From NCBI GenBank assembly GCA_014871385.1, contig CM026426.1:53805477-53869476 (forward strand): 64,000 nucleotides of DNA, given 5' to 3'. This document shows positions 15,295 to 28,503 of this stretch, piece by piece. The notes under the pieces are model-generated. The model was not told the DNA's origin and ran no database searches. It saw nothing but the letters and a program-made list of their open reading frames with translations. Within the stretch, counting starts at the first letter, position 1, and the number at the start of each line of letters is the position of its first letter. The stretch comes from Ceratodon purpureus (Eukaryota; Streptophyta; Bryopsida; Pseudoditrichales; Ditrichaceae). Made by a program: the position numbers and the translations under genes.

Positions 15295-15319
15295 CTTGTG
15301 CATGTGCCCACCCTTTGTT

Positions 15320-15651
15320 GGAGAACGTTATATTGCATGTAGGGAAGGGTAAGGTGGAAGTGCCGCGCAGTGGCGTCTATTGTGCTGCTCCACGCTGGTA
15401 TCCAGCGTTTCCCCCCGCCCTGCCAGCTTTGGAAAGTCGCAATTCCGGTAAATTTCATCAAATGGGTGAAACTGTCCCGTGACACCCCGACACCCGTGAC
15501 ACCTCGACACCCGAGGAGCATGTGACACTAAACACTGCCTGATCACCGAGACACTGAAACCCCCAAACTAACCGTAACCCCAAATATTTTGACGTCACAA
15601 TGATGTCAGCCATCCGGATCGCCTTGCTCCTCCCGAATAGGGTTTCCAGTG
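15320..15651 (+). repeat. Left terminal inverted repeat of the MULE
   Basis: 332 bp, matching the reverse complement of 27952-28269 with scattered mismatches and small indels. Shared landmarks are GCATGTAGGGAAGGGTAAG, the GC-rich block near 15410, AAATTTCATCAAA, GACGTCA, and CGAATAGGGTTTCCAGTG at the inner edge. Three copies of GTGACAC occur within it. Confidence 0.93.
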
Positions 15652-15949
15652 GATTAGGTATCCAGTGTTCTCCTCATCGGTTTTCGGCTTCCTCTTGCTC
15701 GGTTCTGGGTTTTGATATGTTTTATGTGTCGATTTATCCATTTCTTCAGATCCCAGTACTGCATTGCGACTGTCATGTTTATGGGGACATTCTTCACTGA
15801 TGAGATCTGACCTAGGCATGCAGATGAGCAATGTCACTAAGGTAACGCTGTAATGTTTAGGGTGTTCTAACCTAACACTCATTTGCTCTAAGCTGCATCT
15901 TTGTTTCGCTTGATCGATAGCGGTTTCGATCACCGTTTGCATAATCTCA

Positions 15950-18900
15950 ATGGACGCCATGGATGGCATCGATGTGGAGTTACTTGGTGCAATGGAGGTC
16001 GACAGTTTTGGATCTGAGGTAGATCTAAGTGGTTTTGATATTCATAAACTCCAGCTACAGGCAATCGAGGACCGCGTTCAAGACCCTCCTCCTAGCTTTT
16101 TCGGACCACGCGATGTGAGGTGGGACCTCGAATACCGTCCCCTAAGAGGGGAGTACAAGAAATCTCACGTTGTTCAACAATGTTTTGTACCGATTGATAG
16201 GGTTCAGGACTTCATAGAAGGGATGCAGTGTGGGCGGGAAGGGGCTTAGTGTAAATTCCGCGCGAACAAGGAGAATCGGAAACCCAACCTAAGTAGAGAT
16301 GGACACAAAACTTCTATGGAATTCACAAGGTACGTGCCTCACTGTCACAGTGTACATTCCAATCTTTCATGTGTTGAGCTTTCATAATGTGAAGATGTTT
16401 AATTATTACTGCTACATGCGCAGGTTTAGATGTGAATACGGGCCGAAGGACTTCTCTGGAATTGTGAAGCCAATGTCCAAGGACCTACTCCCTAAGAAAA
16501 AAAAAAGAATAGGATTCCTGACTGTGTTCCTGAAGGTAGCACTCTGGCTCCGACTAGGAAAGCTAGAGCGAAAAGGACAAAGGCTGCGCCAGGAAGGAAT
16601 CCCCCTCGTAGATTCAAGTCAAAGACAGGTACGTGTGTCACTGACGCTATGGACTGGATGGTCCAGGACCCAATTCCGTCTCCGAAGAAAAGACGTACGA
16701 GGAAGGTGAAGGGACAGGGTGTGCCACCGGCACCATGCCCAGATAGTTGCAACAATCCACTTGTATGTGACATTCCTGACTTGAATGAACTCCCAGTGGA
16801 CGAAGTGCAGTCCTCCGGATCCCCTGTACCTGCGAAGAAGAAAACAAGTCGTAAGAAGAAGAACGCCATCGACTCAGAGGTTCCTAGTATCACAATAGAG
16901 GGGCCGCCTGCCCCAAAATCGAGATGGAGAGTTCAACGTGTTAAAGGGTAGGCAGGAGTAGTCGCTGAAGGTCCGACTGTATCCGACAATGGTTGTGTAA
17001 CGGACGTTGCCCCACCTAAGAAGAGAGCACCCAGGAAGAAGAAGGGTTTCATGGACCTCTTGCAGAGCGGTGCAGTGGACAAAGCGCTAGACTCGGCTGT
17101 CGATGCAGGGATTCTCCCACCCCCACCCCTTCTTCATAGCGGTGACACTACTTCAGTGGAGGTGAATTACTTTGTTCTCCATCCCCTTACTGTCCCTGGA
17201 ACTCTAGTGCCGTGTGAACACGTCGTTTCAAATGCCTCAAAGACTACTAAAAAACCAGCTCGTAAATACGCTCCTCGAAAGAAGAAACAGTCTCCTGTGA
17301 CAGAGACAGCCTTGCCGCAGTGTCACGCACACGCATCTCCGAGTGAGTTCACTGCGGCTTGCCCTACTTATGACCAAGCGTGTGCACAATCTTGGGAAAG
17401 CTCTATGCTCGCGATACCAGAGTGTGTCTTCACGGTTGAAATTTCTCACGGCTATCTGGGGCTCCCACCTTTACTCTCGGTTCTCTGTGACACTGCAGAC
17501 GCTTCTAGAGAGGAAATCGCAGCGTCCGATGGACAGAATCTGATAGACCTGGGTTCCGACGGACGAGGGGAAGTAGTCGACCCTTCTGGAGGCAATGGAA
17601 AGGCGGGAGACGGCAACCAAAATCCGCAGGCCCAAGTACCACGACCCCGCTCGAAGATCAAACGGGATTCTAAGAAGAAGTGGGGGAACTCCATCAAGAG
17701 GGGTTGTCAAGCACAATTCACGGTAAAGCGCCTTCTCTACTTACCCCACGTTTCAGAGATTTGTATTATCCAAGAGAAGCACGTAAACCGGGACGGTTTA
17801 ATAGTACATGGTGGTATGAAGAATGGAGATCGGAGTGCATTCTCAGCCCATCTTTCACCTGAAATTTGGTCCTTTGTTGAGGACTGCCTACGTAGAAAAG
17901 ACACTCCCATCCAGATTATGAAGAAGCATATAGAACTGCTGAAGCAGTACGAGGCTCAAGGGAGGGACATAACAAGGGATTTGTTCCTTACAACTAAAGA
18001 CATTCGCAATATTTCTGGTAAGTTGGCGCAAGAAACGTACATGCTGCACAAAAACAATGCACAGAGTGTCCATATGTGGGTCCAGAGAAATCCTGAAAAA
18101 GTATTTTACTACACTGAGTCTAATAAGGAGAAACCCGTTCCTGTGCCGGGCGAACTTACTGGATCCAACATGCCATTCACGATCGAAATTCAGACTGAGT
18201 GGCAACGTAAAATGATGTTGGAGCATGGACATCGAAGTGGAATTTCAGGGGACGCCACTTTTGGGACAAACGAGAAAAAGGTAAGCATCGTAATGCATTA
18301 TCTTCTGCTGGGTCAATGCATGTTATGTATCCATTGAAACATATTGTGTAGCCTTTGTTCCTTATGCTGAAATATATGTCAAATTATTCACCTGGGGTGT
18401 CGGATACATACACTGAATTGTTTCTGTGTGGTCTGTTCTGATCGGTTTAGTTTCCATTGTATACGCTCATGGTATTTGATGAGTGGCACAATGGAGTGCC
18501 TGTGGCATTCGTACTTACATCGAAGTGCGCGGAAGTGGACCTCACCCGTTGGATGAGGGCGCTGAATGCAAGAATGGTTCAGGAGAAACCAGATTGGGAA
18601 CCAGCTGCATTCATTGTTGATTGCGCCCTAGGCGAAATTAATGCTATTAAGTGAGTCACTGTTGCCTCTCTTATTTCGAGTGACATCACTGAACGGACTG
18701 TATGAGATGTGAAGTGACAGTGTCACAAGAAATACTATAGTGTCACAATTCTGGTATAGTACTCTAGTACTCTGTTGTACTGTCACAGAATGAATTATGG
18801 ACACTTTCCACTTCGTACGATCATGTTAATCCACTTGCAAACACAATGCTATCTTAATTATCCTTACACATAACCTGTGACTCTTTCTGCAGTGACGTGT

Positions 18901-20012
18901 GGCCAGAAACTGCGATTTTCCTCTACCTATGGCATGTGAGAAGAGCCCGGCAGAAAAATTTGTGCTATAAAATAGCTGATCATGGAAGGCGTGCAGCTAT
19001 TATGAAGGAGTTGGGGTTAATGATGTATGACAGAAATTCAAGGCCGGGGGTGGAAGGACAAGAATGGGCGAAATCAAGAATCGAAGATCTAGAAAAAAAA
19101 TACCCTCAAGAAATGGAGTTCTGGGCCTACATGAAGGAGTACTGGGTTGATAAAGCACACATGTGGGTTGTCGGATTCAGAAATCTGAAATACTGTGGTC
19201 AGGATACGAATGCGGCCATTGAGGGATACCACGGTTTTGCCAAATCTATTCTAAAATCCGAGCGCAGTAGGATGATTGGGAGGCGAGTGGATTGGTGCAT
19301 CACAGCCCTGACCGAGGATGTATTGGATCACTATTGGTTCAAGGACGTCCGTAAAGAGAACGGCTTTGTCGACAACAAAAAATTGCAGGATACGGTTGTA
19401 GACTCTATTCTGAAGGCTAGACAGATACCGGACATTGACGTGACACTGCCAGAGACTGAGGGTGGATTTGCTATGGTGACATCCACTTCACATCGACATT
19501 TACAATACACTGTTCATAACCCAGATTCGGAGTGGGGAGTGTGTAATTGTATTTGGGCACAAGGGGGTAACATGTGCAAACATCACGTGAAGGTTCTGTT
19601 GATGATGAATCCAGATCTAGCGGAAGGAACTATTGCAAGGTACTGTGGGAGGCTCGCTGGCACCGTGAACGGAGGCCTTAAACAGATACTAACCCCACGA
19701 CGCCAAAGCCAACCCGAACCAGAATGCGCTTTCACCCCTGCTCCGGAATTTGCTTCAGTGCCCGTGACACCAAGTTATACCCCTCAGGCGTGTCACCGAA
19801 AGGATCTTCCAAGCCCATTGATACAGCAAGTGACTATGCTGACGCAGGAGGTAGATGGAGATTCCGTCATGATGGAGCACCTCGTTGCGGAGTTTAATTT
19901 GACGCTAAGCAGATTGAGAAAAATTAAAGCCGAGAGACGAGATGGAATATTACATCCCGTGGTTGGTGAGCCCGAATTTTTCCCGTATACGATGGTATGG
20001 GATTCAAGTTAG
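15950..20012 (+). CDS. MULE transposase (WRKY-GCM1-like N-domain, DDE, SWIM zinc finger)
   Basis: Transposase of the surrounding element. Exons: about 15950-16329, 16424-18280, 18451-18650, 18893-20012 (GT-AG, framed across junctions). Order: acidic N-terminus and an EYGPKDFSG block; Lys-rich low-complexity linker; KRGCQAQFTVKRLL, resembling the WRKY-GCM1/FAR1 fold; catalytic DDE residues in GDATFGTN (Asp codon 18251), FIVDCALGEINAI (Asp codon 18619) and NAAIEGYHGFAK (Glu codon 19221); and a SWIM finger CNCIWAQGGNMCKHH (CxCx8CxH) near 19.54-19.59 kb. The catalytic and SWIM portion is open. In the N-terminal third there are in-frame TAGs at 16246 and 16948, and the frame changes across a run of ten A (16497-16506). 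Homology with the relic at 58-60 kb supports reading through these points, so they look like real damage or sequence error rather than introns. Stop at 20010-20012. Confidence 0.88.
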
Positions 20013-20238
20013 GTTGTAGGAAGGACTTCCTCGAGCGATCAGGTCCCTCTTGCGCACGTCGCCTTTGAGTTGATAGGTTTAGACGCTCTGACCAAGACCA
20101 AAGCTTGCACGTCAAGCTATAGAGAATATTCCTCTCTAATGTTGTATTCCTAGGGTATTTAAGCATGTGTTCTCCTTTGTGGAGCGTCTTCCTTCATATC
20201 TTTGTTTTCGTTTGAGTCTTTTCTAGTGCTGTGCGAAT

Positions 20239-20649
20239 ATGTTTCGTTTTGGCCTGATGTTGGAGATGGGTTTTAGCGAGATAGCGATTATGGATTTAAC
20301 GTTGTTGCTATGCGTCATTTTCCGAAGTTATCTACACAACGTAGATATGATTCAAGTTCTAATCGCTGCGCGTTCTGTTGGAGACTCCGTCAAGACCGGC
20401 GCTGTACCCCGTGTTCATCGGACGTGCTCAAAGCGTAGTTTCAGAGGACTTGGGCTGAGGGACACACGCATTGTGGACAACAGCCCAGTAGACGATATTG
20501 GGGACGACCGTGACTCTGTGACGGACTCAAACATCAAGCGGGAGTTAGCCGAGAAGAACGCAGAGGAGTCGACGTGGATTTTGAGACAGTACTACGGTGG
20601 TATGTGTGAGGAGGAGGTTGATAACATCAGCAATTACAGTGCAAAGTAG
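20239..20649 (+). CDS. Hypothetical 136-aa protein inside the MULE
   Basis: An ATG-initiated frame 226 bp after the transposase stop, preceded by a possible TATA sequence (GTATTTAAGC near 20154). The N-terminal half is hydrophobic (AIMDLTLLLCVIFRSYL, one possible membrane helix); the C-terminal half is charged (DDIGDDRDSVTDSNIKRELA). I recognise no family. It could instead be a 3' exon or untranslated part of the transposase transcript. Confidence 0.35.
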   Translation: MFRFGLMLEMGFSEIAIMDLTLLLCVIFRSYLHNVDMIQVLIAARSVGDSVKTGAVPRVHRTCSKRSFRGLGLRDTRIVDNSPVDDIGDDRDSVTDSNIKRELAEKNAEESTWILRQYYGGMCEEEVDNISNYSAK

Positions 20650-21697
20650 GGTTGGATCTGGTAGTTTGTTAAGTGCGGCGTAGAAGTATTTCGACGTTTA
20701 CTCCTGTTATAAATTTCAGTTTAATGTACTCGGTGTTCTTTACCGAAATCGTGACACTGTCCAGCGTTTGTATTGTGACATTGGTTTCTATGGTAATTAC
20801 AGTGCAGAAATTTTCCATAACAGCGCCATTCTATCTGACTATTTCGTGAAATACAGAGGTCATGAACAAAGAGAAATTTCTCGAGTCCGTGTTCCCAACA
20901 TTCTTACTTAAAGTTAAAAATATACGCTCGAGTAGAAACTAAGAAAAACTTCATGCAGTGTCACAGAGTCGATGAACAACTTAATCTGGTGTGAAATAAA
21001 CATATAGAGGATCCCGTCGACCGTCGACTACCACTCTTCTCGAATTGTTTTTCTGGAGTGTAAGTTATTTAAAATTAAGTTTCCATTTCTTTCAGGTTAG
21101 AAGAGTAAACATATGTACGAATTTATACATATCACGCCTAATGTATAAAGAAATATTCGACAAGGAATATCGTGACACTTGAAGAATGAAATATTCATTA
21201 GGGGATTAAGATTCATTACGCTCCACACTAAACCTACGATAATTTCAAATTACTCATTATTCAATATATAGGAAATAATTTCGGCGTAGTACTCCACATA
21301 GTGAATTTTATAAGGTTTTTTTTTTTTTTATTTTTTTTATTTTTTATTTTTTAAATATTACACTTTTTACGTCGCCTCAATAACCCTACTCATACGCATA
21401 TAAAGATGAGAGTTACTAGAGATTTAGTATAGTATCTATTTGCAATAAATTTATTTTGACTCTTTTTAGGCTGCGTAGTCGATTATATTAATAAGAAAAT
21501 TGTATTCTTATTCTATATGTAAAATTAATATAATATGTTGTTAAGAAGTTCAGAAGTATAATGACTTTATTTATTCCATACTACAAAATAACTTACATCC
21601 ACTTTATGCCCTTGTAGTATTTTTGTCAACTTTGTTTCCAGAGTCACATTCCAATTCTAATCATTAATATGCATTCTTGGTATTTAATTTCTCTTTA
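20650..21697. other. AT-rich centre of the MULE between the convergent genes
   Basis: About 1 kb without a plausible gene. It contains a long T-rich tract (about 21316-21352) and several GTGACAC/GTGTCAC motifs (near 20749, 20958, 21171). It is where the two convergent transcription units would terminate. Confidence 0.5.
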
Positions 21698-21913
21698 TTA
21701 TTTTAATTTCTTCTCGACCATTAAGACAGATTCTGCTGCTTGGGTCGGTTTAGGGTAGTGGGTTAAAGTAGCATACATAGGTGAAACAAATCCGGATCTG
21801 TAAATCAAAAATATACTGTCAATGTCACTAAATACTCCATCTCCAAGTGGGTCGCCAATGAACATTTCTGTGTCACTATTCTGTGAAGGGTCTGTCTCCC
21901 GTAGGGAAATCAT
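21698..21913 (-). CDS. Hypothetical 71-aa frame, possible 3' exon of the protease gene
   Basis: Frame on the same strand and just downstream of the Ulp1-like gene, ending at TAA. Composition is acidic in its first half (DPSQNSDTEMFIGDPLGDG) and looks coding. It may be a last alternative exon or a separate short gene; no domain is recognised. Confidence 0.3.
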   Translation of the reverse strand: MISLRETDPSQNSDTEMFIGDPLGDGVFSDIDSIFLIYRSGFVSPMYATLTHYPKPTQAAESVLMVEKKLK

Positions 21914-22020
21914 GTGCTCTTAAATTTCAATACCAAAAAAAGAAAATTACAACGTAATCCGAGAGAACTCTAAAATCCTACTTCACATTAATTCCTATGG
22001 GGTAACTCTACACCTAGGGG

Positions 22021-24409
22021 TCAGTCTTCTGGAGAAAGTGATTTCTTGTTTAGAGGAACAGAGAATGGGGGCTTGTAACGAATGTCACGTTTTTCTAGAT
22101 CCAGTTCTCGAGCGAGTAAGCACATGAGCTCTACATTAATGTTCTTCGGCTTGAATGGCTGCAACAACGCCATCTTCAGCAGCTCCTCTCTCCGTGAAGA
22201 TCGCCATGCCCGGAACTGATTCCCAAAATCGACAATACACACAGGCGAATTAACATCAGAAACTTAGTCTCACGCCACGTGAAATAAGAGTCGGCGCTAA
22301 AAAAATGTGCTATGAGAATATAGTGTACGCATGTAATTTAGATATATATATTGAAGTTAAAATAGACGCTGTGGTTAGAATTACCTTTATGTACAATAGT
22401 CCGTGGTGTATAGTGTAGTGGCTACACTCATACGTCCCTGCCTGTCGTATGACGTCCAGTGTCACCACAGGCACGTCGTATGGCTCGACTCCTCGTACGT
22501 GTTGCCACGCATGACATATCCCCTTCACGAATCCGTAATCCTTACCCTCCGGATAGTGATGATCACCCTTTCGGGAATCTAGATGATATACGCGGTCAAA
22601 CCTAAACACTAGAAGTGACCAGTGGTCCCTTCCTACCCAAGGTACAATGATTTCCCTAACCTGATGCACCTCTATTGGTGCGGGAGGCTTCAAATAGATA
22701 GATGCAAACCGAAGAAGACTGTCCTCGTCTGAGTCCACGGGCTTGGCCGTCGAACTTATGCGCGATGTCACTACCAAGATTTCATGCCGATCGCTAGGAG
22801 GGTACTGAAAATACAGCCGTGAAAAAACAAGGTCCACTAGATCATTACCTAGTCTATCCCTGACGCGTGTAAGTGCCTTTATCGCCTCGAAACGAACCTC
22901 AAGCTCTTTACCCTTTTTGTTGTAGAAAATTACCTCCTCAGCTCCATCCTTTTTTCCTTCTCGTCCCGGCAAACTCTGCAACAAGTCACCTATGTATAAG
23001 AAGCTGTATGCCTGTGGTAGCGTCATAATACTAACATCTTCAACTCTTACTATGGCACCGCCAGCCCACGGGGGCAGTGCCATTGCAGTCGCGAGTTCGT
23101 TTTGCGTTCTAGTGTCTAGGGTTGACTTCTCCTTACATTGGATGTCGACCCGTTGGGATAAATCCACCAGTTGCTCTGCCGTTGCTTCGAGTTGTTGTTC
23201 CTCTTCAAATGTTTCATGCAGATTCCTCACCGTTGAATCTTTCGCTAACGCTTCCACCACACCTCTAGTCTGTCCCGTGACATCACCCTCGATTCCCGAT
23301 TGCCCTGTGACAATGGAAACTCCTTTGTACGGTGTGTGGACAGAAACATCTGCGGGCGCCTTCATCCATTGGACGAAACTGGGATCCTGTGAGAATCCGA
23401 GCGAATCCTCTTCCACCATGTCGTCACCGGCGTGTGCGGTATTCTGGAACTGACTCAATGTTATGAGCGGTGCTGCTCCCGGGGACGCCACGGATTCCTC
23501 AAAGAAGTTTCGAATCTCCGGAAACACAGTACTGGCAGTTGGACATTCAGTATCGCTCGTCACAGTTGCTCCCGTTGATGTCACATCCCTTATAACTGAC
23601 CCTAATTTGCCTGTACCTGTGGGCCCTACAGAGGGCACACCCTTCACCGAACTGTAGCCTGTACCATCCTCCATCACATCTTCGATTTTTCTACCTTTCA
23701 CATCCGACAGAAGAGTCTGATCCTCATTTCGTGTGCCCTCTGCAGTGTCACCCTCTCTTGCAGCGAAAGGAAAGTTTTCCGGGAGGTCGACATGGTTCGT
23801 GTCCCGCTCTGTCTGAGATGCGAGTATTGCTTCGCCCACAGTTCTGGTGTCACAGTCTAATTTTAGCCCCAGAAGAGTGTCACAGAGATTTTCGCAGTCA
23901 GTGACATTGAGAATGATTCCTTCGACCTTGTCTTTGATCGTGGGATCGACAATACTGTCGTTCAGTACATTGGCCGTGATATTGGATGCCTTTGCTTCGG
24001 GGGCTTCCACGACCTCTGCTTCCACTGTTTTTTCTTCTCTGGCCTTCGACCCTTCTGACCTTGAAATCACCTTTGCATGCATTTCTGCTCTCAACGAGTC
24101 CGTCGCAATGAACTCCCTAGCACAGGACGACCAATATGCCTCGTCTTCTCTCGTTAGAGCCTCCCCTATCTCCCCAACCCCCTTTTGGATTCGCAAACGT
24201 ATAGCCGCAACACCTGGGTTCCAAGTGGGTGTGTCGATCGCAGGTACCCAACCAACGTCATGCTCTTCTCTCGTCCTCATTACCCAAGCCCAAGTAGGTG
24301 CGACCTCTACCCACAAGTCGTGTCGAACCGTGCACCAAGCAAACTGAAAACCATAGCGTGACACACCGCTAAGTCCTGCAATGCTCGTTTCTGTACGCAG
24401 CGCACCCAC
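22021..24409 (-). CDS. Ulp1-like (C48) cysteine protease carried by the MULE
   Basis: Likely deSUMOylating or deubiquitylating-type protease of the C48/Ulp1 family. The main exon (24409 to about 22383, donor GTAATT) encodes roughly 675 residues, most of it Ser/Thr/Glu-rich and disordered-looking, with the protease at the C-terminus: IIVPWVGRDHWSLLVFRF supplies the His (about residue 596), YHLDS the Asp (about 611), and RQAGTYECSHY the oxyanion Gln (about 656) and nucleophile Cys (about 662). The Gln-6-Cys spacing equals that of yeast Ulp1 (Q574/C580), but the usual DCG is ECS. A following frame (22242-22021, GNQFRAWRSSRREELLKMAL) is probably the last exon; the exact splice is unresolved. The frame is open at 24409 without an ATG, so an upstream exon must exist near 24.4-24.5 kb. 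Known precedent: ULP genes captured by plant MULEs (Kaonashi). Confidence 0.8.
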
Positions 24410-24542
24410 CCGAGCACCTCTTCGATTAAATCCTCGCCAGCCCCTTCGTTTATTCTCTGGACTTCTTCTTGGACCCGAGCACGCAGTGTCTCACCTAACC
24501 CGAAACGAATCCCTGCTTAATGATAAGAACCCTCCGATATAA

Positions 24543-27136
24543 ATATAGAGAGGGCCCTCTAAATATTAATCCCACCTCTGCACTCTTCGTAAATGACGTC
24601 CTTCGTTAAACCGTGCATAGGGTCGGACAGTAATCTGAACTGACCAAATTGGCATTTGAAGAGTATGCAGAATATGTATACAAGTGGTATCGGTCGAACA
24701 CACTGTACTCTAGTTTGACAGAGCACCTTCCTGACCTCCTTCGCTTCCACGACTGCAAAAGAGTACCGGCGGAGGTCGTGAGTAACGTACCAATAACTAA
24801 GCCACAACAAAAGGAAATGTAATTTACATTCACCGTACGAAAAGAAACTAACCATCATGCCGCCAAGGGAGTTCTGGTAGCGTTGCAAAGAGATCCTTTT
24901 TAGCGGAGAGAAGTCTCCATATGGGAGACCACGCCTACCTTACTTCTTCAAAAAGCATCCCATGATGTTTCTTGAATTCAGCGTGTGCGGTGGCTTTCCT
25001 TGATTCCTCCGCTTTTTTTAAGTCATCGTCGTATTTGGCCAACTCTTCTTTGTAACATCTGTAATCAAATGTACACTGGACGTAATCCTTCATTGCGTCG
25101 ATATCTTCGTATGGCACACCTTCTTCGACATTGAGCACGAGTGCATCAATACGCTTGCTGACTTCCTCAATCACTTCCGGAAGTACGGGATGTTTTTTGT
25201 CAACCTGCACAGTGACACGTTAGTGTGACAGTATACAGAACAGAAACTGATATTGTAGTTCTTCGAAAAATAGAAATAAGAATACATCATGGTAAGTAAT
25301 GGACAGTGTCTCTAACCTTTTTTCTTATCCACCAGTAAGCAAGCTCTTTAAGTGTCACCCGGAACTCCTCCTTTGTGATGGAAGTGTTCCACTTGTCCAA
25401 GAAGTCCAGTCCGCTCTCACAGTCCCAACTCCATGGCAATTTTACGTCTCCCCCAACGTCTCCTAGGTGATACAGTCCGGGTTTGCGTGGTTCTTCCGGA
25501 CGCTTTGGAGGCGATGGATACCGTTGAGCCAAGTCGGCATCCCAGAGGATTTGGAGACATTGTTCACCTCTACCTCCTGAAGCATACTATAACGTCTAGT
25601 AAACCTAAGTAAAGTTTCCGGGTGATAAGTGAAGGGCCCCGGGGACCCCTTTCCTTCGGCCCAGTACCGTCTTAGTTCTGAAATGCTGTCACCATCCCCG
25701 ACCCACACTCTTTCTGCGCGCACTCTCTCCAGAGTGGGTTCTGAACTGTCCGAATCAGGAAGGGGAGTCGTTGGTTCTGCCAGTAGCGACTCTTCGTGTG
25801 TCATATCGTCACCGTGACTTTGCAGTAAAACATCTCCGACATTACGATGATTGTGCATCTCATTACTATCTTTGATGGCTATGCTAGTGTCACAAGAGGA
25901 ATCACGAACATTTCTGAACGTGCATTGACTATTACAACAAGAGTGTGAACATTCCCTAGAGTAGTATCCCGCAAACTGTCCTCTGACAACATTTCGTACT
26001 ACTTTTGAGAACCTCTCACGTAATGTGTCGATAGCTTCTTGTTGAGCACGTACCTCGTTATCTGATTTGATCAAAATTGTGCTCTGGTTTTCTACACTCT
26101 TGTCCCTTGTCTCCCGATAGGCCACGTGAAAACTAATATCCCCCTTTCCAGAATGTACGTCTTCAGATCGATTACCCCGTATAAAAGGCACGCACTCCAC
26201 GTTGTCATCACTCTGTGACCCCTGATCTTGCGCATTAGTGTCACAAGGCATCAGACTTGCGGACTGCAATACCCCTCCTGGAGTCATCGGCAATGAGCTG
26301 TCGCTCCCCTTTCTCCCCGTCTGGTCTGTGTCACCTTGCGACAGTAGTCGCTCCAGAGCGTCAACCTGAAAGAACACGGTACGCCTTTTCTTCACTCCAT
26401 TCGCAACCGCCCCCTCCCCGGCCACAGTGTCCTCTTCTCGGAGTTCCTGTTCGTGGTGACACTCCCCTTCGGCCTCTCCTAGGTCATCCTGAGTGTGATC
26501 CAGTGACACAGTTGTTGGATGCCTTCTACAGCTACGGAATGGGGGGGCCGCTCCAGTAGCAACTGGCTTCCTTTTCCTCTTCGAATCAACCCCGCCCTCC
26601 GCATCTCCCATGACCCCTGAGACTTTCCCGCAGTACAGGTCCGCGGCCGGCGCGACATTATGCCCGGCTGTGCTCATCCCTCCCGTCTGCTTACCTAAAA
26701 TCCCATTTGCCTTCGTCAATTTCTCTTGTGATTTGCTCTTTACAGGCACAGCTCCTCCCTTCACAGACCTTGTAGTTGCTGCTGCAATCTTCGCCTTTGT
26801 TGCCGCCGTTGTCTTCCCGAGGACCTCAACTCGCTTCCCCTCTCCACGTTTGAAATCCGGGTACGGTAGGAGTAAAGCCTGTGTACCATCCGGATGCTTC
26901 GCGGCTTTGCATCCCTCAACATAGCGGTGTTTGTTTAACATCATTTTGTTGGAGGAGTCCCCCTTCCCGCAATGGATGCAAACAAAGTATTTCCTCACCC
27001 CGTTCGGCTTCACCTTCCCCTTACACACAATTGCAAACTCCGCCATTAGGTCCTCTACTCGCTTCCGACTAAGGTACGTGACCTCGTAAGTTATCCCGTA
27101 CATCACACAGTGCAGTGTCACTGGCTCCTCCGCCAT
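24543..27136 (-). CDS. Zinc-finger-like accessory protein of the MULE (multi-exon)
   Basis: I do not recognise a named family. The ATG at 27136 starts a long frame (to 25463). Residues about 49-75 hold YFVCIHCGKGDSSNKMMLNK followed by HRYVEGC, i.e. CxxC then His and Cys, resembling a BED/C2HC-type DNA-binding finger, followed by Lys/Ala-rich basic linkers and a long disordered region. Near 25.53-25.58 kb the coding-like frame changes (intron or frameshift) into DADLAQRYPSPPKRPEEP and SGLDFLDKWNTSITKEEFR, ending at a GTTAGA donor near 25316. Another exon follows (about 25208-24945, VDKKHPVLPEVIEEVSKRI, then a charged helix). A further frame to 24543 (VVEAKEVRKVLCQTRV) may be the last exon. It lies just upstream of, and in the same direction as, the Ulp1-like gene; one joint transcript cannot be excluded. 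It could correspond to a mudrB-like helper by position only. Confidence 0.6.
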
Positions 27137-27350
27137 GTGGCTGGCCCTGTAAATCTACGTAGAGTTGCCACACTTTGGAAAACCGGAAGGAAAAAAATTG
27201 AGGAAACAGTACTTGTTCAGGACTCCGACAGATGCTCCACACTTATTCTGGCAATAGACAGGATGGTGAAACCAATCCTTGTCGTTCCTTTCGACGTCAT
27301 CCCTATGCAGGTACTGATCTGTACACTCTAGAAACCCTTATGTAATCAAC

Positions 27351-27360
27351 CCTATATATC
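27351..27360 (-). promoter_or_regulatory. Probable TATA box for the leftward MULE genes
   Basis: GATATATAGG on the - strand, about 215 bp upstream of the ATG at 27136 and about 590 bp inside the inner edge of the right terminal repeat. Motif and position only. Confidence 0.45.
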
Positions 27361-27951
27361 GTGTGCTTCAACGCTCTAACCCTGAGGTTCGAGAGAAATG
27401 ACTGGATTTTTTTAAGCAATCGTAAACCCTAATGACGTTGGTGAACACTAGAAATTGGAAAACGACATGAGAAGTGTCTTACCTTAGAATGCTCCAGAAA
27501 ATACTGTCCGTCTCCACGGGCGCTTCCGCGGTGCTCCTGCTCACAATGCAGAGGTCAGCCAGATGGGCGGTAAACGATCCCATCCCGCAAAAAAACAACA
27601 AGAGAAATAGAAAGGAGAATAAGGCTCTACCGGAGTCCGGGATACGTACCTCCATAACACTGGAAACTCCCACAGATAACAAGAGACTCCTTGAAAGCTC
27701 TGCTCCAGCGCGTTGTGTAAGGTGTCAAGTCGGCAGCAATAACCATGTTGAGGGCGCAATGATGATTTCGTCTCCAAATCGGCGTGATGTGACTTCTTGC
27801 GACGGGGAGTTGAAGACGCTACTCAATATCGTACACCCATAAATCAATGTTCCTTGAAACCCTACAAATTCCACCCCCCCAAAACGTCCAGAAACCACAT
27901 TGCGCCATGAATTCTCCAGAGACCCTAAACCGCAACAAAGCACTCTCGAGA

Positions 27952-28269
27952 CACTGGAAACCCTATTCGGGAGGAGCAGGGCGATCCGGATGGCTGACGT
28001 CATTGTGACGTCAAAATATTTGGGGTTACGGTCAGTTTGGGGGTTCCAGTGTCTTGGTGATCGGGCAGTGTTTAGTGTCACATGCTCCTCGAATGTCGGG
28101 GTGTCTCGGGCAAACAGTGTCACCCGTTTGATGAAATTTACCGGAATCGCGATTTACCGAAGCTGGCGGGGCGGGGGGAAACGCGGGATGCCAGTGTGGA
28201 GCGCCACGATGGACGCCACCGCGCGCCGCTCCTGCCTTACCCTTCCCTACATGCGATATAGCATTCTCC
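27952..28269 (-). repeat. Right terminal inverted repeat of the MULE
   Basis: 318 bp, inverted partner of 15320-15651. It begins inside with CACTGGAAACCCTATTCGGG and ends CTACATGCGATATAGCATTCTCC, immediately followed by the target duplication CCCTTTGTT. Confidence 0.93.
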
Positions 28270-28503
28270 CCCTTTGTTTTCCAATGAGTGCAAGGTTTTC
28301 AATGCAAGATGGAGTAGGTATGTGCTTAGCCCTTTATTTCAATATAAAAGGTTTTTGATGCAAGATAGGGTGGGCACATGCCAACCACTTCTTTTCACTG
28401 AAAAAGAGTGATTTTTGATGCCTGATGAAATGGATATTGGGTAGACATGTGCCCATCCCTTATTTCCAACATGTGCAAGGCTTTCCATGCAAGATGGGCC
28501 ACA
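28270..28503. repeat. Degenerate minisatellite flanking the MULE
   Basis: About four imperfect units of 45-70 bp, each with the elements CCCTTTATTTC, GCAAGG or AGGTTTTT, and ATGCAAGATGGG, followed by ACATGTGCCCA. The left flank of the MULE (GTGCATGTGCCCACCCTTTGTT, split by the insertion at 15319/15320) is the missing half-unit. The MULE therefore inserted into this array. Confidence 0.6.

Follow-up and report, generated by a model that had tools for sequence, protein, structure and literature searches.

The 9-base motif bound by the VANDAL-encoded protein VANC21 is concentrated in the family that encodes it, and methylation is lost when VANC is expressed (PMC5735166). According to a review, KIU genes are VANC genes that have a Ulp1 domain and act on elements carrying KIU, the role of that domain being described as unknown (PMC13317346). 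What Ulp1 does in plant Mutator-like elements (MULEs) and how VANC-type proteins unsilence after binding are stated to be open questions of the field (PMC13317346, PMC5735166). Here we describe a MULE family of the moss Ceratodon purpureus, represented by a 12,950-bp element in a 64,000-nucleotide stretch of contig CM026426.1 (C6:53805477-53869476, hereafter the window). The element has a transposase and a small open reading frame (ORF) on the plus strand and, convergent to them, one spliced gene (gene 2) on the minus strand in which a putative zinc finger and a Ulp1-like protease are joined, and it carries a short word, AGTGTCAC/GTGACACT, scattered along its length.

The layout resembles that of MuDR (mudrA/mudrB), i.e., long terminal inverted repeats (TIRs), a 9-bp target duplication, two convergent units and a MULE transposase, but the second unit of the moss element is a finger-Ulp1 fusion and the small ORF lies on the transposase side. 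It is also close to the Arabidopsis KIU/Kaonashi elements (KI-MULEs), three-gene MULEs in which a Ulp1-domain gene runs in reverse to the transposase and which act on their own family through short motifs (PMC13317346, PMC2528002), as the moss element presumably does. KI-MULEs are non-TIR elements, whereas the moss TIRs measure 318-332 bp, and, unlike in KIU and VANC systems, the moss motif is dispersed, partly exonic and common to subfamilies. VANC21 and VANC6 of VANDAL21 and VANDAL6 (Hiun) offer the same combination of a transposon protein with a short motif that is enriched within the family but seldom seen in other transposons (PMC5735166). However, VANC proteins are drawn there with DUF1985 (PMC5735166), for which the moss protein has a C2H2-like finger instead, and the binding and hypomethylation demonstrated for VANC are a prediction for the moss family. 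Ulp1 domains have been reported in Mutator elements of melon, rice, grapevine, maize, hydra and lancelet (PMC2528002, PMC2836005), a likeness to the moss element. In grapevine and melon they occur in unrelated families and are absent in close ones, which has been read as repeated captures or losses; the moss case is one finger-fused gene across a large, diverged family. Ginger1 likewise carries a Ulp1 domain on a transposon, with a PHD zinc motif in one listed family, but has another transposase type, and the Ulp1 domain is C-terminal on the transposase itself (PMC2836005). Among the titles and abstract openings listed in a literature search, which did not extend to preprints or most subscription journals, none describes a moss MULE that has either a finger fused to Ulp1 or an array of this kind.

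Structure and copies of the element

The element occupies positions 15320-28269 of the window and is bounded by a perfect 9-bp target duplication, CCCTTTGTT (Table 1); target duplications of MULEs measure 8-11 bp, mostly 9. Its TIRs align in two segments, an inner one (94% identity over 159 bp) and an outer one (85% over 156 bp). A TIR search of the genome (362,488,568 bases in 151 contigs) gave 38 matches, and we compared nine further copies of 12.7-13.3 kb with both ends present, leaving out TIR pairs on C1 and C148. Among the nine, seven are flanked by their own perfect 9-bp target duplications; that of the C13 copy is 9 bp if its last base has changed or 10 bp if it was lost, and the C7 copy is without one. 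The copies form subfamily A (the window copy, C6_110, C6_16, C13, C9, C6_93 and C6_81; 89-98% identical within) and subfamily B (C8, C7 and C6_85; 88-98%), the two being approximately 65% identical to each other. Subfamily A copies match the window element over its whole length, long aligned pieces being ca. 90-94% identical and interrupted by some indels, and the three B copies hold frames that match the window transposase, finger and protease frames. The same gene set is present in all nine further copies, several of them decayed.

A sequence-only reading of the window had proposed a complete MULE with long terminal repeats, a perfect 9-bp duplication and two convergent units. This layout was confirmed. 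The window copy itself is decayed, with stops or frame changes in both large genes. Exon structures were derived from the alignment of all ten copies. The four transposase exons are open without internal stop in C8 and C7 (1,192 amino acids) and in C13 (1,204 amino acids), and stops are present in the other seven copies. The spliced Asp-Asp-Glu (DDE) region of C8 matches PF10551 at 52.3 bits (cut-off 27.6, E 7.8e-14), in agreement with the proposed MULE identity; the domain was missed by window exons scanned singly, and C8 exon 3 alone falls below the cut-off (E 0.026). The Asp-Asp-Glu spacing is 66 and 120 residues. The SWIM-type motif that had also been proposed is present as the pattern CxCx8CxH, with Pfam SWIM itself below its cut-off (E 0.16, 12 vs 19.6 bits).

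A predicted finger-protease fusion under purifying selection

The second unit had been read as a finger-like protein followed by a Ulp1-like protease. Both parts are present, as one predicted fused protein rather than the products of two genes: because the splice sites of the exon 3/4 junction (in-frame donor GT, an intron of ca. 100 bp, acceptor AG) are kept in all ten copies and the C8 frame is continuous, with five spliced exons giving 1,675 amino acids without a stop, finger and protease appear to be exons of a single gene. Two separate minus-strand genes are rejected, as the stop that separates them occurs in the window copy alone (the other nine have TGG at that place) and the spliced C8 frame runs through. 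Internal stops in gene 2 number one in C7, two in C6_16 and more in the remaining copies. Apart from the exon 3/4 junction of gene 2, some splice sites of the two genes are missing from individual copies, and in subfamily B the second intron of gene 2 begins with GC, not GT. The exon order is the same in two more distant members of the family, L065 and L067.

The finger has the pattern C-x2-C-x13-H-x5-C within a Cys-rich N-terminal region, is conserved in a distant member (L065/L068) and gives weak matches to C2H2 fingers in the PDB (E 0.14 and 0.16). In the protease part, His, Asp, Gln and Cys (H623, D638, Q683 and C689) are invariant in all five aligned members, and we take these to be the catalytic set in Ulp1/peptidase C48 order. 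One of the five members scanned, L067, passes the PF02902 cut-off (24.8 vs 20.7 bits), and a PDB search with the C8 exon had as its sole match a Ulp1-like SUMO protease (E 0.0099) with the four catalytic-type residues aligned. Support for the putative protease homology comes from the conserved catalytic residues, from the single member that passes the Pfam cut-off and from one weak match in the PDB.

Ratios of nonsynonymous to synonymous substitution (dN/dS) over four copy pairs, rough for pairs between subfamilies A and B as silent sites are near saturation there, are 0.03-0.29 for the transposase (3' part of exon 2, and exon 4) and 0.18-0.39 for its exon 3 (three pairs). In gene 2 they reach 0.13-0.22 in the N-terminal finger region, 0.12-0.38 in the protease, 0.21-0.36 in exon 3, 0.13-0.78 in exon 5 and 0.36-0.75 in the two linkers. 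A six-frame scan of the copies indicated the same frames. These values show purifying selection on transposase, finger and protease, so that the latter two are not passengers: gene 2 is a core gene of the element, and the label of cargo given to it by the sequence-only reading understates its standing. That reading had taken copies with these ends but lacking the protease and finger genes as the mark of accidental passengers; the genes are kept together in each of the nine such copies examined.

Its picture of the element's extent was incomplete as well, since the element is one of the many members of a large family. A transposase search of the genome yielded 828 candidates, the best 93 of which were scored. 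Three protease-exon searches (best 51-58 of 566-587 candidates) gave together 97 loci, and a fourth (best 49 of 561) one more paired locus. A convergent protease match lies within 18 kb at at least 63 of the 93 listed transposase matches, and the only two non-convergent close pairs come from adjacent C1 copies. Of the 93, 46 are on C6, i.e., above the share of this contig in the genome (30%).

A short motif constrained along the whole element

The sequence-only reading missed a further feature, the array of GTGACACT, which is a new finding. An all-word count in four copies placed AGTGTCAC/GTGACACT first among 8-mers by over-representation, with 20 occurrences in the window copy, 23 in C6_93, 28 in C8 and 26 in C6_85 against 0.6-0.7 expected, and all ten copies contain 20-29 of AGTGTCAC per element. 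Markov simulations of third and fourth order (100 each) reached maxima of 5 and 10 for the window copy (observed 20) and of 4 and 11 for C8 (observed 28). The word is absent from the window flanks (51 kb) and from 16 control loci (51.8 kb; eight around PF10551 and eight around PF02902 matches), and the ten copies have GTGACA at a density of 3.4-3.9 per kb, vs 0-1.6 in controls. Three more distant subfamilies are also enriched in the same word (14, 18 and 22 copies in 8.0, 8.0 and 8.8 kb; 0.4-0.5 expected), only poly-A ranking above the motif in L066.

Across the genome, pairs of neighbouring motif copies matched at 213 places vs 66 for a reversed control. Among the first 100 of these 213 listed, covering C1 to part of C6, 75 pairs (40 of 60 clusters) lie no more than 15 kb from a family match, a space that makes up 1.1% of the genome. 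The zero counts in flanks and controls, together with this concentration near the family, rule out that the motif is a general feature of the genome.

Sites occur in all three frames and both orientations, exons included. Synonymous-codon shuffles of the long frames (500 per copy), in which protein and codon usage were held fixed, gave far fewer GTGACACT than observed: 18 vs 1.5 in C8, 16 vs 2.3 in C6_110, 11 vs 1.9 in the window copy and 10 vs 1.5 in C6_85, the observed count exceeding all 500 shuffles in each of the four. Of the eight 8-mers that occur at least five times in the exons of the spliced C8 genes, AGTGTCAC takes the first rank, and words contained in it head the 7-mers (120) and the 6-mers (807). 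Sense sites of gene 2 in C8 number nine vs 1.65 (shuffle maximum 5), more than in any of 1000 shuffles. Position is conserved too: 12 of 31 GTGACAC sites of the window copy are identical in C8 (2.1 expected locally), and C13 gives 16 of 36 (2.4 expected), values met in 0 of 5000 permutations in either case. At the same time, the total of GTGACA is stable at 44-51 per copy in both subfamilies, although A and B have no more than about half of the places in common, a pattern of conservation plus replacement at nearly constant number.

The motif is thus constrained at the DNA level, beyond protein and codon usage; an effect of codons or protein is rejected on the basis of the synonymous shuffles and of the occurrence of the motif in all frames and on both strands. 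A signal at the RNA level is not favoured because the motif stands in both orientations in exons, although exonic GTGACAC leans to the sense strand in most copies (e.g., 13 sense vs 6 antisense in C8).

A possible self-addressed anti-silencing factor

The sequences show a single spliced gene (by frame and conserved splice sites), intact catalytic-type residues, purifying selection on finger and protease, and a constrained, family-concentrated motif array. We consider that the best explanation, to which we give about even confidence, is a transposon-encoded, sequence-addressed deSUMOylating anti-silencing factor. The family would be of an autonomous type that combines a DDE/SWIM transposase with a small hydrophobic ORF and a long finger-Ulp1 gene. 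The finger end of gene 2 would most likely recognise GTGACACT(G), which is present along the whole element including its coding sequence, and many protease molecules could thereby be loaded on family members only. There, the loaded protease would strip SUMO from local silencing or chromatin proteins, and the element would be kept unsilenced so that transposase can be made. We propose gene 2 for this role because the logic is the same as that of VANC and KIU, with other parts. We infer that gene 2, rather than the transposase, binds the motif; the predicted protease activity would be on SUMO, and anti-silencing its probable outcome.

With confidence slightly short of even, we postulate further that an early land plant lineage holds a self-addressed zinc finger-Ulp1 fusion whose single conserved 8-9-bp word, written throughout the element including synonymous positions, is a family-wide anti-silencing address, with an origin separate from, or long before, that of VANC and KIU in flowering plants. 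If true, it would amount to a sequence-addressed deSUMOylation module and to selection writing a regulatory word into transposon coding sequence. Given that a conserved finger, a catalytic part and a candidate target word are all visible in the moss family, the link between them is directly testable.

Several results weigh against a motif-loaded deSUMOylating factor. The finger is under the Pfam C2H2 cut-off (zf-C2H2_11, E 0.0022, 18.1 vs 27 bits) and four of the five proteases are under that of PF02902 (L066 at E 0.21; the window copy, C8 and L065 with no match listed). A profile search of the PDB gave nothing at E 0.1, and AlphaFold predictions for two single window sequences, with a mean predicted local distance difference test score of 40 and 35, were unusable and not used. 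Scans of gene 2 exons gave no DUF1985 match up to an E of 1; a genome search with PF09331 had 0 matches, but control genomes had none either. VANC motifs are fast-changing tandem repeats in noncoding DNA, whereas those of the moss are dispersed, partly exonic and conserved. In C8, the three gene/strand classes other than gene 2 sense are at or below the shuffle maximum (1000 shuffles). Away from any listed family match lie 25 of the 100 listed motif pairs (20 of 60 clusters), which may be due to unlisted members or to something else. Thirty of the 93 listed transposase loci have no protease match among the matches listed; because only the best protease candidates were scored, they are no evidence that gene 2 is absent there. 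Finally, the subfamilies with the motif in common conserve the transposase as well as gene 2, and the motif could therefore be read by the transposase.

This last point leads to the strongest rival, in which the transposase reads the GTGACACT sites, the array assembles a transposition complex and the protease separately regulates transposase or repair. Subterminal repeats are read by their own proteins in other DNA transposons (TnpA of Spm, Ac), GTGACA in the window copy is densest in the transposase introns (11.9 per kb, 6 sites) and the left TIR (9.0 per kb, 3 sites) vs 3.8 overall, and the transposase is the more strongly conserved of the two proteins in its exons 2 (3' part) and 4. However, the sites extend over all 13 kb and into the gene 2 exons, unlike a subterminal pattern, and the eight loci around PF10551 matches are without AGTGTCAC, and we regard a transposase reader as rather unlikely. 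We find it quite improbable that gene 2 is a helper of transposition or integration unrelated to the array: Ulp1 domains are reported on several transposon types, with proposed roles in transposition or repair (PMC2836005), and such a helper role has been proposed for mudrB (PMC6446971), but both the motif array and the conserved DNA-binding-type finger would be left unexplained.

The array might also be a host transcription factor site that drives expression of the element at a chosen life stage, e.g., for TGAC-core homeodomain or bZIP proteins, as GTGACA resembles known plant factor cores. However, in the window copy the sites run through exons and are not concentrated at promoters (one GTGACA in the 298 bp 5' of the transposase and none in the 368 bp 5' of gene 2) and the window flanks hold 29 where 28 are expected, which makes a host factor very unlikely. 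That finger and protease are accidental passengers of the window copy, to which the common capture of genes by MULEs (PMC2528002) and the 30 listed transposase loci without a listed protease match might lend some colour, is rejected for the copies examined and next to incredible, given the presence of the genes in all nine further copies, the purifying selection and the convergent protease matches at at least 63 of 93 loci.

Feature coordinates and further observations

Table 1 Features of the element and their positions in the window
Feature	Position	Strand	Details
Left target site duplication	15311-15319	none	9 bp, CCCTTTGTT
Left TIR	15320-15651	+	332 bp, begins GGAGAACG
Transposase exon 1	15950-16329	+	start codon; stop inside it in the window copy
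Transposase exon 2	16424-18280	+	first catalytic-type Asp codon at 18251
Transposase exon 3	18451-18650	+	second Asp codon at 18619
Transposase exon 4	18893-20068	+	Glu codon at 19221; SWIM motif 19542-19586
Small ORF	20239-20649	+	136 amino acids; hydrophobic N-terminus, conserved C-terminus
Gene 2 exon 5	22021-22215	-	C-terminal end of the predicted protease protein
Gene 2 exon 4	22385-24752	-	linker and Ulp1/C48-like protease
Protease residues	within gene 2 exon 4	-	His 22622-22624, Asp 22577-22579, Gln 22442-22444, Cys 22424-22426
Gene 2 exon 3	24853-25204	-	bridge between the finger and protease genes of the sequence-only reading
Gene 2 exon 2	25317-27302	-	N-terminal Cys-rich region, C2H2-like (C2HC) finger 26909-26986, variable linker
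Gene 2 exon 1	27483-27583	-	start codon 27583-27581
Right TIR	27952-28269	-	318 bp
Right target site duplication	28270-28278	none	9 bp, CCCTTTGTT
Dispersed motif array	15479-28123	both orientations	GTGACA 49, GTGACAC 31, GTGACACT 20; in TIRs, introns, exons and middle region

The stretch of the small ORF is 414 nt long in nine of the ten copies and open in six; C6_16, C13 and C6_85 have it interrupted, and C6_81 lacks part of it. Its dN/dS is 0.30-0.72. It is possibly a third gene under weak constraint, perhaps corresponding to vanB or a similar third gene. Ahead of gene 2, both subfamilies conserve an upstream start codon with a short frame (MVIAADLTP...; window 27651-27746, minus strand), which runs up to a donor-like GTACGT/GTATGT and could be an upstream ORF or an alternative first exon.

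The inner part of the TIRs (15493-15651 and 27952-28110) holds a TTTGACGTCACAATGA block and is the part matched by many of the weaker TIR-search matches. It is a candidate transposase-binding or promoter core. The right flank of the C7 copy (L053:170-197, near C7:5759480) reads as another element end (CGTTCTCC) five bases away, i.e., two element ends abut head to head. At C1:13951597-13977265, three TIR matches (+, +, -) ca. 12.7 kb apart and two transposase and protease sets are probably adjacent or nested copies of the family.

The C. purpureus genome has been described as 360 Mb, with U and V chromosomes each of more than 100 Mb and approximately 30% of the genome (PMC8000587). Because C6, with 110,524,308 bases, makes up 30% of the assembly, we presume that it is a sex chromosome. 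Other frames with a Ulp1 domain were seen in a cluster at C4:7.46-7.73 Mb (frames of 712-744 amino acids) and, as a 239-amino-acid frame with equal scores, at C6:59727080, C7:2013625 and C10:268045; these possibly belong to other Ulp1-carrying transposons.

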